Below, piece by piece: positions 20,135-63,630 of a stretch of DNA of 64,000 nucleotides. Made by a program: the position numbers and the translations under genes. How positions within the stretch are numbered: position 1 is the first letter of the stretch; each line of letters starts with the position of its first letter. The notes under the pieces were generated by a model. It did no database searches. It worked only from the letters and a program-made list of their open reading frames with translations, and was not told the DNA's origin. The stretch is taken from positions 1,590,001 to 1,654,000 of the forward strand of contig NC_052409.1 in NCBI RefSeq assembly GCF_009389715.1, given 5' to 3'. Origin of the DNA: Phoenix dactylifera. Lineage: Eukaryota > Streptophyta > Magnoliopsida > Arecales > Arecaceae.

Positions 20135-21518
20135 TGGTATCAGAGCAAATGATTGACAAACATCCTGATGTCAATCACTGGGCAATCTCCTTCCGAATCC
20201 TCTGCTGAGAATGTCATCCCCGCTTATCCCACCTTTACAGCGATACCTCATATGCTCACAGTGAAGCTTACCCGTGACAACTTTCTCTTTTGGAAGGCTC
20301 AAATGGTTCCATACTTTCGAGGACAAAATGTGTTTGGTTTCCTCGATGGATCAATCAAAGCCCCATCCCCTTGGTTACTTCCGTCTTCAAATGATGACGC
20401 CGAGAGTTCTCGGATACCCAATCCTGCTTTTCATCAGTGGGTGAAATAGGATCAACTTATCCCGAGCACCCTCATGTCCTCTCTTTCAAAAGGTATTCTC
20501 GCCCAAATCATTGGCTATACCACTTCCCATGAGGTCTGGCAAGCTTTGGAGAGGAGCTTTGCCTCACATTCTCACGCACGAGTTGTGCAGTTGTGCACCC
20601 GGTTGGCAAGCTTGAAGAAAGGTAACCTCTCTATCACTGACTATTTTCGTAACCTGAAGAAGATCTTCGATGAACTTGCTTTAGCCGGACATTCGTTAAG
20701 CAGTGATGCTCTTCAAAGTTATTTACTCGTTGGTCTTGGATCTAACTATGATCCTTTTGTTACATCGGTTACCACTCGTTTTGATCCTCCATCTCTTGAG
20801 GAACTCTACTGTCATCTCCTCACTCATGAGTCACGCCTCACACACCAAAATCAGCCCTCCTCTTTTGCTGACATTGCTGAACCATCCGCAAATATTGCTT
20901 ACTCTGTTCATTCCGTTTGCAAGTATATACATCGTCCCTTGAACTCTCATTGGCAAGCTATCAAATCGATCCTTCGGTACTTGAAGTCCTCCATCTCCTT
21001 TCGTCTCCTTATTTCACCGTCTTCCTCCCTTCAATTGCACGCCTTTACCGATGCTGATTGGGCTGGTGACAAGGATGATCGTCGCTCCATTAGTGCCATT
21101 GTATCTATCTTGGCACTAATATGATTTCCTGGAGTTGTAAGAAGCAAGCTACTATTGCTCGAAATTCTACTGAGACTGAGTATAAGGCTCTTGCGAATGG
21201 TTTTGCTGAGCTCCAATGGCTTGGCTACTTGCTATCTGAGTTGGGCTTCATCAAGCTACCGGTTCCTTGTCTCTGGTGCGATAATATTGGTGCCACCTAC
21301 CTCTCATCTAATATAGTTTACTATGCTTGCACCAAGCACATTGAGTTGGATTTTCACTTTGTTCGTGAGAAGGTTGCTAAGCGCCAACTTCTTGTGCGGT
21401 TCCTCTCCAGCAAAGATCAGATTGCTGATGCTCTGACCAAGCCTCTATCGACGTCTCGCTTTCATTTTCTGCGATCTAAACTCAACGTCCGGTATCTTCC
21501 GTTGAGTTTGCGGGGGCG

Positions 21519-38189: not shown

Positions 38190-38703
38190 AAGATGAATTT
38201 TGATAAAAATCTGCCAAGCAGAGGTGAGGGAGATGGAATTGCTTTTACGAATAGGAACCAAGACTCTAGATTGATTGCGGCAAGAGGCGACATTCCTTCA
38301 AGGCATCAATTATTGGGCCAGAGCTCCGTATTGTATGGAAGGGTATTTTCTATGTGAGACAGGTGTTAGGGGCTGGAAGCATCATTCTTGAAGGAGACTT
38401 AGCCGTGGTGATTAGATGGATATTGGACGAGGAAAGGAGGGGATCAGATCACCCGCTCCTAAGTGACATACAGTGGCTAGTGAGGAAGTGTAATACCTTT
38501 CAAGCTGTGCATGTTTACCAAGAGGCGAACAGAGTTGCTCACCGGGTCGTCTCATATGCTGCTTATCACTTCGGCGAGTTTCTTTGGACTCGGAGTACTA
38601 CTTTTCTTTCTCCACCTAGATACCTTCTTGCTTTTGACACTGCTGGTTGTGCTCACGTGAAATTAGTGTGAGCAGCCAATGTACAAAAAAAAAAAAAAAA
38701 AAG
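38190..38703 (+). mobile_element. LINE 3'-end fragment with RNase H domain
   Basis: The plus strand reads MNFDKNLPSRGEGDGIAF, then NRNQDSRLIAA and, after a frame change, a 105-codon frame with LGAGSIILEGDLAVVI, NTFQAVHVYQEANRVAH and LAFDTAGCAHVKLV. This is the RNase H-like domain at the end of plant LINE ORF2, here including its N-terminal strand. A long A-run follows the stop (38681-38710). The 5' part of the LINE is missing and no target duplication is evident. Confidence 0.7.
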
Positions 38704-42060: not shown

Positions 42061-48624
<6,564 letters not shown>

Positions 48625-50092
48625 ATTATGAACATGCAGTCACGCACCGTTCTACCATTTATCTTTTGTTAAATGTTGCAACTACTTATTCAATTATTAA
48701 TATGTTAGGATGGCTTATGGGGCAACGGATTCAGGACTTAACTGGCCTATTTAGAATGGAGTTTAACAGAAATTCTTCGGTTTACGATGTATATGGCCTT
48801 TGGTGCCCTACAAAACTCAATGCCGAAATTTCAGATTTTAGTAGCTTAAATTGTTTTTGTTTTTTGCATTTATGAAGTCATAACTATCTCGCTGCATATT
48901 CTTCTCTAATTTTAAGACTTGTTCGATGCTTTCCTGTTTTCAAATGCTCATGCATCTCAATAGTCTGAGATTAGAACAAGTGATATATTGAATCTGGCCC
49001 ATAAGGTAGTAGCACATACTGTTATCGATGGACGGTAACTAGCTCCGAGCCATAACCTTTTGAAACGAGGTCCGATTGGCGCTTTTTCGCTCAGTGATAC
49101 TGTCATTGAGAGCAAATGGAAAAGCTCAGCTAATGTTGGTTGTATGAATTAGCGTGCCATGATTCAAGTCTCCAGCCAGTTGATTTTTCAGTTGCATAAC
49201 TTTGGCAAAGTCGAGTGCACTAGACGAAGTTAATTGAAGGGACAATGTCATCCAGATCGTGTCATAGAGCTTCTGACATTCTTACAGCTAGTATGATCTG
49301 AAAATCATGGAGTTCCTTAGATGCCCACTTCATGCTTGTGAATGGAGATTTCTTCTTCTTCTTATTATTATTATTATTTGTTGGGGGTGCTAGGGTGGGA
49401 CAAGAGTAGGTTTTGGGGTTCAGCAATGGAGAAATCAATTTAAATTAGAGTATCACATGGTCGGAAAAGTTTTAGTTAAAGAGTCGCTGATTCCACATTA
49501 AATAACAACAACGCAGCTTCTTGTATGTCTGCCGTTACAGGGAAGACAAACAAGTCCAAGTTTCTTCAAGCTATCAACTTGAACCTGAGACCTCTTCATT
49601 AAATAGAGTAGGTTATCGAACAAAGTGCAGTTTTGGTCTGAAATTTGCTGTATTTTGATTTTTTTGAATGTATCCAAATTAAATATATATAAACCATCTA
49701 TTTCAGGCAAAAAAAAAAAGAAAGAAAAAAAAAAAAGAGAAGAAAAGAAAAGAGGCTGTCTTCTTTGACTGCCATGCGCATATAACCCAGCGTCAAATAC
49801 GTTCCCATGATTTGTCCCAACCAATGACGGGCCCAGGTATTGTAAGGAACCCAGTCCGAGGCGTACAGAAGATCCGGCCCGTTAAGAGCCTGCTGGTTCT
49901 TGGTACAATGCTTTGTACTTATAACCCGAAAATGTCGCTAAAAGTCGTGCCAACCCGGTCGATTTTGCCATTACAGCCCTTCCGGGGACACGTAGCACTA
50001 TTTTCCTGCGCGGACTTCCGGTTCTTATCACCTCGACGGTGAACGAGAGGTGGGCGGCTAAACGCTCCCACCCTTCTCTTCCTGCTCTCGAA
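48625..50092. other. CDC48 3' region and spacer
   Basis: The first few hundred bases are likely the CDC48 3' UTR. The rest is AT-rich spacer with an A-rich tract at 49708-49752. From about 49800 the DNA becomes GC-richer as the promoter of the next gene. No further gene is seen. Confidence 0.5.
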
Positions 50093-59066: not shown

Positions 59067-61600
59067 TCTTGTCAAATCCTCGATCAAAATATTCTAGGGA
59101 GAGCTCATTGACTAAAGAAGTCAGCAATGTCAAGTATAATCCTATTAGGACCGACCAGTTGAGAGCTTTAGGTGTGCAATGGAAAGAAATATCAAAGAGA
59201 ACAAAGTAGCATTGCAGGCATGCAGGTTTTTTTTTTTGTGTAAATGTCAGTCTGCATCAAAAGTACCGGTCCTCTAAGGACACTCTTCTTAAAACTACTT
59301 GCAGTGCCTTAAAGGAGAACATCACTTTGCAGAACTAAGTGCAATTCATGAAGTCCTAAAAAGTAAGCATCTGAACTTATATGAAGACCAAACTAATTCC
59401 AGTCCGGTGCATGTGTGTGTGTGTGTGTGTGTGTGAGTGAGAGAGAGAGAGAGGAGCATATGTTATGCACTAAGTGAACAGTTACAAAGGTATATGTGTA
59501 TGTTTGAGTTACTGTTATGTCTCTCTTTTTGTTTTTTGAGAAATTGAGTTACTATAATTTCTAACATACATAATATGATGTGTTAGAATGTATAAAGCAT
59601 TTTAAACACACAAAAAAATGTTCCAGAGGCCGAGTGTGCATGCTTCCATTGTATATATTCAGAGTCAATTTATACGTGAAGAAGAGGGGTGGAATTCACT
59701 TTACAGACACCTCTCTGTAAGATGTCCTGAGGGGTCCCTCCACCTTACATACAAGTATTAGCAAAATGGATATACCTTATGCTGGGTGCATGTGCATGTG
59801 TCATGGATAAGTGTTAACTAATTAATGGTAAACCCTGCCTTGCCCTTCTTTTTCTTTGTTGCTTTCATTCTAAGGGCATTTCCATGTCTCAAGTCTTTTC
59901 TTCCACTGATAAGCTCTTTCAGAAGGCTCAAAAATGATTTTCCTGCACCTTGTCTGACTACATTTTTCTTTTTGTTTTTCTGAAAAAAGAACAAACAATG
60001 AAAAGAGAGGATGAAATAGTACAGCTAGAAAAGAAGTAGAAGAAATAGCGGCCGATATACTCGAAACTTGTCAATGGGAATTCACACATATTCAAGAGGA
60101 TGAAATATTGCATTCTTGAATGCAACTTATATGCCCGCAAAACTTGTAGCTATACAACCATGCATATACATGCAACGGATTGGAATACTTATTTGTTGTT
60201 CCGTTATATTGATCTCTTGAACACATTCAAGTTCTTTTTTTTCCCCCCATAACTTAAATCTTAGATATAAGTTGGAATCTGTCACTCTGATTGATTCAAA
60301 TTCTGTAAAAAAATTAGTAATCTTTTTTTAAGGTGTCCACTGCTACAGAAATACAAATATCCAAAAGGATCACCAGACCATTCATCCAATATAACCCGTA
60401 TTATCATTTGCAGATGTACTAGAAGTTTCACAGATAGACAAGGAAACCCGGAAACAAATATTCTTTTGATGCAATTAAAGATTGGACAACCCATCATCCA
60501 ATCATTAAGAAATGACAGTCGATAACAGCTCGATAAGCCTGCAGTCCGACGCTCAACAATCTAGCAATGGATGCATGCTTAAAAGTATGATCAATGGTGA
60601 TATATATATCTGTGGGATTATCATTGCAATAATGTAGTATGCTTGATCTACAAAGCAAGAAGGGCATGGAATCATTCTTAGCAGGAAAATTAAATGCTTT
60701 GCAAGCTCTCATTCTCTTAGACAAAAAGCTTAGGTGGGTTATTCCTCCCCTTTTATCAAAAAGAAATGCACAATGGGAAGATCAAGAGAAACCTATTTCT
60801 CCTTTTATGATGTTCCTTAGCTTGATGGGGTTCATACGCCAAAGCTGCAGAGCCCAATAATCCATCTGCAGGATTAATTAACTCAATCATTGTGAAAAAT
60901 TAACCTCAAGAAGTTCACTGAAAAAAAGTTCCCGGAGCCGAATGCCAGCATCTAACAAATTAGGCATAACAGGTCTCTGGCCCTTCTTGTTTCCTTCAAT
61001 AAAATTTCCCTTGATGCAACATATATTTCAATAAAAATTCAAGGCCACCAAGAGATGAAACCAAACTGTGGTGATACTGGATCAGCTATATTACCTGCAG
61101 TAGTGGATGGATACTCACTGGGAGTGTGCCCTTGCCTCATGTAGCATCACCCTTCCTCCATGATATTCTCTCCTTGATTCCCTAAAAGCTAACATCCAAA
61201 GGGCCACAAATGAAGAAGAAGCTAGCAACCAACCTAAAGAATCAAAACTTTGGCACCAAATAAGCACAACTTATTCATAGAAAGATCAAGCATAAAATTA
61301 TAGGCAAGGTTTATATAAAATCCATCCTCCACTCGTGGACTAAAACGATGGAATCATATTGTGATTCTCATAGACAACGCATTTGAATCTCTACCGAAAA
61401 TAGGAAAAAATATATAACACAAATCAGCTCAAGGGAATAGTGAGAACCTGGAATTTATCTTGCAGGATTAGCAATTAATCTACTTTGCTGAGGGCATAGC
61501 ATCTCAAGCCTCAAATACCCATTCTAAATACTCCATCAATCAGGTTATTCTCTTCCAAAGCAAAAAATCAGGTTATTCTCTTTATACTCCGGCAGTAAGG
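59067..61600. other. Intergenic, downstream of MIR172
   Basis: This is AT-rich spacer with a (GT)n-(GA)n microsatellite at 59411-59452. The 3' part of the minus-strand primary MIR172 transcript may extend into it. No coding gene is supported. Confidence 0.45.
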
Positions 61601-61768
61601 TAGGAAGTTAAAAACAAGAAGGAATAAGTACTCCTATAGACAAACAAACAGTCCCAATAATTATATGACAAGAAGGACATAAAGAAATCCAACCTCGGTG
61701 GAGTGGGTAAAGAATGGCAGTGGAGGCAGCATCTTCTTCCAGATCGCATATATAGTCGCTTATTGCTG

Positions 61769-61789
61769 ATGCAGCATCATCAGGATTCC
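61769..61789 (-). ncRNA. miR172: Mature miR172 (3' arm)
   Basis: These 21 nucleotides start GGAATCC and end GATGCTGCAT. The seed GAATCC is one change away from the usual GAATCT. Position 7 faces a mismatch with the 5p arm. Confidence 0.85.
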
Positions 61790-61828
61790 CATTTGGGACC
61801 ATGTCACGATCTCGGATCGCCCAGCCCA

Positions 61829-61849
61829 TGTGAATCTTGATGATGCTAC
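61829..61849 (-). ncRNA. miR172-5p (star strand)
   Basis: These 21 nucleotides start GTAGCATCATC and end GATTCACA. They pair with the 3' arm through one G:U pair and one internal mismatch. Confidence 0.8.
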
Positions 61850-62429
61850 ACCCGCAAACACCGACTGTTTCCGTCCAAACCCATGCAGTAGCGTTGCATC
61901 CAAATGAGATGGAGAATAAAAGTCAATAAAAGCCAAAGTCTATGTCTGGATATTGGTCCAAAAGAAGAGATGGCAGCAACAAGAAGGTAAAAATGAGATC
62001 TATTCCATCTATTCTATGCACAACTAATGAACACAAGAATCCAGTCCAGTCGTGCAGTAACCTCCACAAAAGTCCGGATTCTAGCTTGCATGGTGCCGCC
62101 GCCACCGAAATCCAAGGAACAAGGAGATCCAAGTCCTGAAGTTATTATTTTCTCCCCTCACCTCTTCTGGAGAGACCGAGGACTAGGAACAGATAGATAC
62201 GTTTCAAAATAATAATAGGGATCATACAGGGAGTAAAAGAAGAAGGATAACAAACGACTAGAGCGAAATATAAGAGAAGAAGGCTGCCTGATTCCGGCCA
62301 AGAACCGGCTGGATCCTCACTTTCCGCCCGAGATCTGACATGTCTCCACCTAAAAAGCCATGGTCATCTAATCAAGGATGGCCAGAAAAGGCAGCTGAGT
62401 GGCTGGAAGGAGAGAGCATGGGGAGACAG

Positions 62430-62460
62430 AGAGACAGTGAGAGAGAGAGAGAGAGAGAGG
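62430..62460. repeat. (GA)n tract in the MIR172 leader
   Basis: GAGAGAGA on the plus strand is a CT-rich stretch of the minus-strand primary transcript. It lies shortly downstream of the expected transcription start, as in many plant leaders. Confidence 0.8.
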
Positions 62461-62507
62461 AGGATGGATAGATCATAGGGGGATAGCGAGAGGGAGAAGT
62501 TCAGGGG

Positions 62508-62515
62508 TATTTATA
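62508..62515 (-). promoter_or_regulatory. Probable TATA box of primary MIR172 transcript
   Basis: TATAAATA on the minus strand is followed by ACCCCTGAACTTCTCC and then the CT-rich tract. This is the classic layout of a plant pol II core promoter. It lies about 640 bases upstream of the hairpin with no ORF between, and supports the minus-strand assignment. Confidence 0.6.
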
Positions 62516-62711
62516 AATTGAGCCGCAGATCTGGGTGGTGATATTTCAGCCCCCATCTTACGATGGGTCCACGCACGCTTCTTGTTTCCTTGCAGCTGTA
62601 GTTTCTCCTTCCTTTCCTTGCAGCTGTAGTTTCTCCTTCCCCCCAGTGAACAACTGTAGATCTTTTGTAAGGCAGGAAGACAATTATTTCATTAAGTCGT
62701 AGATAAAATAC

Positions 62712-63630
62712 AAAAAAAAATTTATACATATCTTTCTAAATATTAAAATTTACATAAATACCTTTCTAAAATTGATATTTACAAATATATTCTTATAAAA
62801 TACTTGTTTTCCATATATACTTTTTATTTTACTTTTTTCTTGCATATATACCCACACCATCCAACGCCATCAAGAAATTAACGGTTTAAAATTAAAAATA
62901 ACTGAAATATCCTTAATGGATAGATATATAAAAAAAATATTTATAAGGGTATATATGCAAATAATACTTCGAGAGGATATTCATGCAATTTTATATATTT
63001 AGAAGGGTTTACATGCAAAAACTTCTAATTTTATTTTTTTTATTTCAATCTGTTTTAACACTCGGATTTGTCTAATGCCTGCTCCTTAATGTTTTCTATA
63101 AAAATAGTGCTTAAGAAAAGATTGATTCGATAATTAGATAACAAAAAGATTTATGGAAGTTCTTTCACTAATCATGAAATTATTCTATTTTATTCTTCTT
63201 CATTTATAATAACTACTATATCTAATATTTATCAATTTGAAGGAAATTTATGTAAATTCTAATATTTAGAAGGGTATCTATGCAAATATTTAAGATTTTT
63301 TTTTTTGCCTGTATACCCTTCTAAATATATGAAATTGTATGAATACTCTCTAAAATTGCTATTTGCATAAATACCCTTATAAACTTTTTTTTTGCATGTT
63401 TACCTGCTAAAGGTATTTTCATTATTTCAAATCTAAATTGCTAAATTCTTAATGGCATTAGATGGCATGGGCAGATACGCAAAAAAAAAAAAAAAGAAAA
63501 AAAAAAGAAAAAGAAAGGTATATATACAAAACAAGTGTTTAATGAGGATATATATGCAAATATCAATTTTAGAAGAGTATTTATGTAAATTTTAATATTT
63601 AGAAAGGTATATATACAAAAAAACCTAAAT
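62712..63630. mobile_element. Mutator-type MITE with long inverted arms
   Basis: A perfect 9-bp target duplication ATAAAATAC (62703-62711 and 63631-63639) flanks the element, the size typical of Mutator. The arms of about 310-330 bp (62712-63023 and 63303-63630) are inverted copies with many small differences. For example CTTTCTAAATATTAAAATTT on the left faces AAATTTTAATATTTAGAAAG on the right. Within each arm short units of the form TTTAGAAGGGTATATATGCA recur. The roughly 280-bp centre has no coding frame of note. It has no transposase and is non-autonomous. Confidence 0.75.

Follow-up and report, generated by a model that had tools for sequence, protein, structure and literature searches.

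Whether a base change inside the seed region of miR172 alters, weakens or spares its pairing with AP2/TOE mRNAs is the question raised by a hairpin near the end of the 64-kb stretch of date palm DNA analysed here (64,000 nucleotides on contig C18; hereafter the window). The first-pass annotation had read a MIR172 gene on the minus strand whose mature RNA has C at position 7 where U would be usual (hereafter 7C and 7U), and suggested either that the RNA may pair differently with its targets or that this copy may be a diverged member of the family.

The hairpin and its mature RNA

A search of the window against Rfam returned RF00452 (MIR172) as the sole match at the gathering threshold. For the minus-strand hairpin the score was 76.7 bits, above the gathering score of 70 (E 3e-15), and the alignment spanned the full length of the model, which places the hairpin in the curated family. 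A MIR172 gene on the plus strand was rejected, the same region scoring 67.3 bits there, under the cut-off. Folding of minus-strand positions 61700-61920, the check that the first-pass annotation had proposed, gave a stable hairpin of -77.4 kcal/mol (z -3.08), and 2 of 200 shuffled sequences were at least as stable; the hairpin folded alone reached a predicted -58.5 kcal/mol. The feature is a genuine MIR172 hairpin and the original observation is confirmed. The coordinates of the hairpin and of its surroundings are collected in Table 1.

Table 1. Features in and around the MIR172 locus (window positions)
Feature	Position	Strand	Evidence and remarks
Block with part of a CDC48-like AAA ATPase gene	45003..49122	+	80.2% identical to C17 over 4,258 alignment columns; limits of the block, not of the gene
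Hairpin and flanks conserved with the C17 partner	61652..61904	-	80.3% over 259 alignment columns
MIR172 hairpin	61753..61867	-	RF00452 match 61759-61861; inverted repeat with stem arms 61754-61792 / 61828-61866
Mature miR172 (3p arm), starting with G and carrying 7C	61769..61789	-	Sequence and predicted pairing
miR172* (5p arm), same in the C17 partner; its A lies opposite the C of mature position 7	61829..61849	-	Sequence, alignment and predicted pairing
Further block conserved in the C17 partner, within the putative primary transcript	62226..62463	-	72.8%, alignment
12-nt motif identical to that of the C17 partner, putative start-site region	62481..62492	-	625 nt upstream of the hairpin; exact match, inference
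Putative TATA box	62510..62515	-	648 nt upstream of the hairpin; C17 partner has TATATATA in the same setting

A chance inverted repeat or a hairpin of another type, such as a transposon remnant, is a vanishingly improbable origin for this structure. Repeat-like matches do lie close by, at window 62728-62948 and 63375-63625, but the E value of the family match, the diagnostic sequence of both arms, a related hairpin in the matching position of a duplicated segment and further paralogues in the genome all argue against it. The two repeat-like stretches are in opposite orientation, and both match a single place on contig C17, at about 15.8-16.0 kb of the joined stretch, that breaks the collinear order; they probably represent two copies of a dispersed repeat, lying upstream of the putative MIR172 promoter.

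The predicted fold has the layout of a plant MIRNA, with a 21-nt guide on the 3' arm, the star on the 5' arm and 2-nt 3' overhangs at both ends of the duplex, as the first-pass annotation had described; star nucleotide 1 pairs with mature nucleotide 19, and mature nucleotide 1 lies opposite star nucleotide 19. Mismatches within the duplex occur at guide positions 1 and 7 only. The mature RNA agrees in 20 of 21 letters with (G/A)GAAUCUUGAUGAUGCUGCAU, the canonical form of miR172 and also that of the other loci of the genome. The exception is position 7, where the C noted at the outset is indeed present and faces an A of the star, giving an A.C mismatch in the duplex; with U restored at this position in silico, the hairpin energy changed from -58.5 to -62.7 kcal/mol. 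Such a mismatch is probably tolerated in processing, since an A-C mismatch in Arabidopsis MIR172A, at what may be another place of the duplex (position 6 as numbered in that report), had only a small effect on the miR172 level (PMC7577975). A C-C mismatch at that same place lowered the level (PMC7577975).

A duplicate partner and the MIR172 family

The window from 34801 onward, together with the next 20 kb, matched C17:9535000-9594999 in inverted orientation and mostly in order, with a few short matches out of order. The comparison covered this stretch of C17, and the part of the window before 34801 lies beyond it. Since the mostly collinear inverted block spans both a CDC48-like gene, whose open reading frames carry the Pfam domains AAA, CDC48_2 and AAA_lid_3, and the hairpin, contig C17 holds the duplicate partner. 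Noncoding blocks are collinear as well, the arrangement of flanking genes and noncoding sequence expected of segmental or whole-genome duplicates, and on this collinearity the C18 and C17 copies are read as a pair left by such a duplication. Elsewhere in the window, a Copia-type gag and a reverse-transcriptase-like (RVT_3) fragment were found by Pfam at 20450-21121 and 38270-38668.

The partner on C17 has the same 5p arm, lower stem, collinear surroundings and TATA/start layout as the C18 copy. It differs in the loop and in the mature RNA, which starts AGAAUCUUG in the partner and GGAAUCCUG in the C18 copy (positions 1 and 7). Nothing else differs across the stem arms and lower stem, about 79 nt, whereas identity to C17 is 66-82% in the alignable blocks that flank the hairpin block within window 59091-62463, so that the C18 hairpin has probably been under constraint as judged from the alignment. 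The binomial probability of two or fewer changes in 79 is 5e-6 at 20% divergence and 3e-4 at 15%, rough values that take sites as independent and use 79 nt picked after the alignment had been viewed.

A promoter layout on the minus strand had also been claimed. A TATA-type box and a 12-nt motif are common to this copy and the C17 partner; the annotation gave no coordinates, and these may or may not be the layout that it meant. The order common to both copies is TCAATTTAT, a TATA-type box, ACCCC and the exact 12-mer CTCTCGCTATCC. The 12-mer is offset from the start of the TATA box by 23 nt in the C18 copy and 27 nt in the partner, where it lies 665 nt from the hairpin, and the region 62492-62481 is a plausible, putative transcription start site. 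More TATA-like hexamers occur further upstream of the putative TATA box, and a perfect 28-bp tandem duplication lies just upstream of it at 62585-62640. A scan for sigma-70 promoters found 7 sites against 4.8 +/- 2.4 in shuffled sequence, a count that is uninformative for a plant, the model being bacterial.

A genome-wide search with RF00452 identified at least seven MIR172 loci (14 rows over both strands), on contigs C2, C3 (two), C5, C13, C17 and C18, each matching model positions 1-114; of 169,908 first-look candidates 46 were scored, which makes seven a lower bound. An exact pattern search of the genome recovered the same seven 3p arms. As a control for the covariance search, 1 of 14 well-known genomes matched, a methanogen, under the cut-off. 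The number of distinct loci is six, the two C3 hairpins being identical and set in stretches 99.2-99.8% alike. These stretches (C3:8857-8991 and C3:904800-904934 for the hairpins) are inverted on the one contig, one of them about 9 kb from the contig end, and represent a probable assembly duplicate or very recent copy.

Six of the seven loci encode U at position 7 (T in the DNA), and C was read only in the C18 copy. On the sense strand its Rfam score of 76.7 bits is also the lowest, the other six scoring 83.4-84.9, and the suggestion of a diverged family member holds. By parsimony on these sequences 7C is taken as the derived state, because the C17 partner and the other five loci have 7U and the C18 star keeps an A able to pair with U.

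The distinct loci appear to form three pairs, C18/C17 and C5/C2 with common flanks and C13/C3 with hairpin similarity only, and the pair identities amount to 91, 91 and 97% without gaps and to 89, 90 and 66% when the alignments are taken in full. Six date palm members, pda-miR172a-f, were described in 2013 as three duplicated pairs with pre-miRNAs 93, 88 and 75% similar (PMC3738527). The count of members and pairs given there resembles that of the present assembly, and the reported identities are near those computed here but differ from them. The C18 locus is probably one of pda-miR172a-f, a correspondence drawn by count and pairing, not by sequence.

Pairing with AP2 target sites

Searching the whole genome with the miR172-site pattern gave 14 exact matches, comprising the seven MIR172 3p arms and seven sites elsewhere, and five one-mismatch sites, namely two MIR172 5p arms and three others on C7, C9 and C16. 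Eight AP2 loci carry an exact or one-mismatch site (the seven exact sites and that on C7, the count covering these two classes), each with both AP2 repeats upstream and AASSGF encoded in one frame; contigs C1, C3, C7, C11, C12 and C13 are among those that bear them. Their assignment comes mainly from tblastn matches to both AP2 repeats with consensus sequences as probes; in Pfam, four of six short AP2 exon pieces matched AP2 at E 0.0013-0.0055, all under the curated cut-off, and two gave no match. The near-match sites on C9 (several mismatches) and C16 had no AP2 match by tblastn. The distinct AP2 loci number seven, one gene being present twice, at C11:4749500-4759000 and C1604:39500-49000, 98.5% alike over 9.5 kb; this is probably a second haplotype left in the assembly.

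The base opposite mature position 7 is G in all eight AP2 loci. The common 7U therefore forms a G:U wobble at these sites and 7C a G:C pair, and the idea that 7C weakens AP2 pairing is rejected for the loci found. Because of this G, the predicted pairing improves with the variant. Under penalty scoring in which position 7 counts double, the C18 form (G at position 1 with 7C, hereafter G1/7C) scored 0.5 at the site on contig C1, 1.0 at that on C7 and 1.5 at the six other AP2 loci. The common A1/7U form scored 2.0-3.0 on the same eight sites and the G1/7U form of C13 scored 1.5-2.5. Duplex energies with the AP2 sites followed the same order, at -36.4 to -38.7 kcal/mol for G1/7C, -33.7 to -36.0 for G1/7U and -32.6 to -33.7 for A1/7U. 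Near-perfect pairing with AP2/TOE mRNAs at the AASSGF-coding site is thus predicted for all eight loci. The suggestion that this RNA pairs differently with its targets is overstated insofar as harm is meant; G:U becomes G:C at position 7 and no harm to AP2 targeting is predicted, the penalties improving at all eight loci. At the non-AP2 sites on C9 and C16 an A lies opposite position 7, and the penalties there were 7 and 4.5 with 7C versus 5 and 2.0-2.5 with 7U.

In the frame of the AP2 sites the G opposite position 7 opens a glycine codon, GGA, and an A in its place would encode arginine. A target able to pair with U would accordingly need a G-to-A change that turns Gly into Arg, which is why the target side is probably locked by the protein, as far as the reading frame of the site indicates.

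These predictions bear on an unlikely reading of the locus, a decaying duplicate in which constraint has been lost, 7C arose by chance as the copy was turning into a pseudogene, and function is left to the 7U copies. Such decay would fit the Rfam score, which is the lowest of the seven loci, and the unchanged star, where the A.C mismatch costs the hairpin 4.2 kcal/mol of stability relative to U; on these two grounds a mild decay of the C18 copy is possible. Only two changes in about 79 nt of arms and lower stem, when nearby alignable blocks diverge by 18-34%, the retained promoter-like layout and the improved predicted pairing with every AP2 locus found speak against a copy released from constraint.

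The position-7 C in other plants and its likely effect

The 7C variant is known in other plants, and the C18 gene counts as ordinary within an established family. In cotton, a miR172i-like RNA was represented by 22 clones, with the U-to-C change at position 7 named and a match to Populus miR172i stated (PMC2564936). Chickpea miR172_1 (PMC4190074) and, in a monocot, sorghum sbi-miR172f (PMC10716288) carry 7C too. The fern Pleopeltis has the same base in a shifted isomiR, pmi-miR172_v2, with a count of 335 and matched in that report to mtr-miR172a (PMC5426797), and a banana miR172 with 7C was predicted by homology from ptc-miR172i (PMC12250125). The cotton, chickpea and sorghum reports already file the variant under miR172, and the string GAAUCCUGAUGAUGCUGC, which carries 7C, is printed in RNA or DNA letters for cotton, chickpea, sorghum, fern, banana and Eucommia.

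In these accounts ptc-miR172i, cotton miR172i-like, chickpea miR172_1, sbi-miR172f and pmi-miR172_v2 have 7C as in the C18 copy, but they start with A (the fern RNA with CGAGAAUCC) and have other 3' ends, whereas the C18 mature RNA has G as its first base and U as its last. From Eucommia, Eu-miR59, CGAAUCCUGAUGAUGCUGCAU, has 20 of 21 letters as in the C18 mature RNA; it differs in the C at position 1 and bears the paper's own Eu-miR number in place of a miR172 name (PMC5099690). The exact 20-mer GGAAUCCUGAUGAUGCUGCA, with G at position 1, was not found in the searched literature in either RNA or DNA letters. For date palm leaf and root small RNAs, the sole miR172 3p sequence of the main text is the 7U form GGAAUCUUGAUGAUGCUGCA, with a total of 11; a pda-miR172i is named in the target table of that paper (PMC4633500).

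The same base in sequenced miR172 of other plants also counts against a consensus error or a heterozygous allele, with T as the true or common base. This is a very improbable account, although it was judged on a single sequence of the C18 locus, and the near-duplicates in the assembly (the AP2 gene at 98.5% and the C3 stretches at 99.2-99.8%) indicate that alleles may be poorly separated elsewhere. C is the base that fits the targets, as a random error rarely would, and no second copy of the locus appeared among five BLAST matches or among the exact pattern matches.

The explanation considered much the most probable is that the C18 locus is a genuine and probably working MIR172 gene, one member of a duplicate pair, which acquired 7C after the duplication and should silence the same AP2/TOE targets at least as well. 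Transcription would start probably near 62485 on the minus strand, and the transcript would form the usual hairpin, from which DCL1 would release the 21-nt miR172 GGAAUCCUGAUGAUGCUGCAU by the usual pathway. This RNA would silence AP2/TOE-type mRNAs. The U-to-C change at position 7 would have arisen in the C18 copy after duplication, and G:C in place of the G:U wobble of the other copies at AP2 sites would render silencing at least equal and perhaps stronger. The hairpin with its strand and family, the paralogues, the duplication, 7C as derived by parsimony, the target sites and the predicted pairing are read from the sequence, whereas the transcription, processing, loading and silencing strength of this copy are what we infer.

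Previous studies bear on the last step. In sensor experiments full pairing with miR172 gave stronger repression than the wheat q site, where one mismatch and one G:U occur, and an extra G:U in the wheat Q allele lowered miR172 cleavage further and affected spike form (PMC5482987). Induced changes of a wheat AP2 site to G:U or A:C led to smaller lodicules (PMC10722097), and in rice a G:U pair is marked between miR172 and AP2-like sites (PMC13360268); the natural wheat and rice G:U pairs may lie at other positions of the site. The Arabidopsis mismatch and the wheat and rice G:U reports, taken together, suggest by analogy and from the modelled pairing that 7C most likely leaves the targets unchanged and their silencing equal or somewhat stronger. 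What may be usefully added here is an explanation, that on the predicted pairing 7C removes a wobble rather than making a mismatch, with G present in every AP2 locus found. An earlier statement of this idea for miR172 was not found in a literature search too limited to claim novelty.

A broader proposition, tentative and rather doubtful as yet, is that miR172 has a built-in weak spot which U-to-C changes at position 7 have repaired repeatedly and independently; after duplication one copy would be free to become a stronger silencer, and the G1/7C RNA would be a high-strength isoform sharing the labour with its 7U partner. Under such a repair, the wobble could be removed only on the miRNA side, because the AP2 site has to keep G to begin its glycine codon. 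Since in wheat a swap from G:C to G:U at the site cuts cleavage and alters the spike (PMC5482987), the reverse swap, made in the miRNA, could if expressed have an influence on phase change or flowering in a palm. If expressed, the C18 copy would offer a natural test of how far one seed-region wobble limits a conserved plant miRNA, as one genome holds 7U and 7C copies with matching surroundings and the same predicted targets; otherwise it would be a routine annotation. Among those targets, the proposed repair would leave the G1/7C isoform best fitted to the AP2 pair on contigs C1 and C7. As a separate observation, the AP2 site at C7:8188673 has TCG in place of TCA, both encoding Ser, which places a wobble at position 8 for all three mature forms in the genome.
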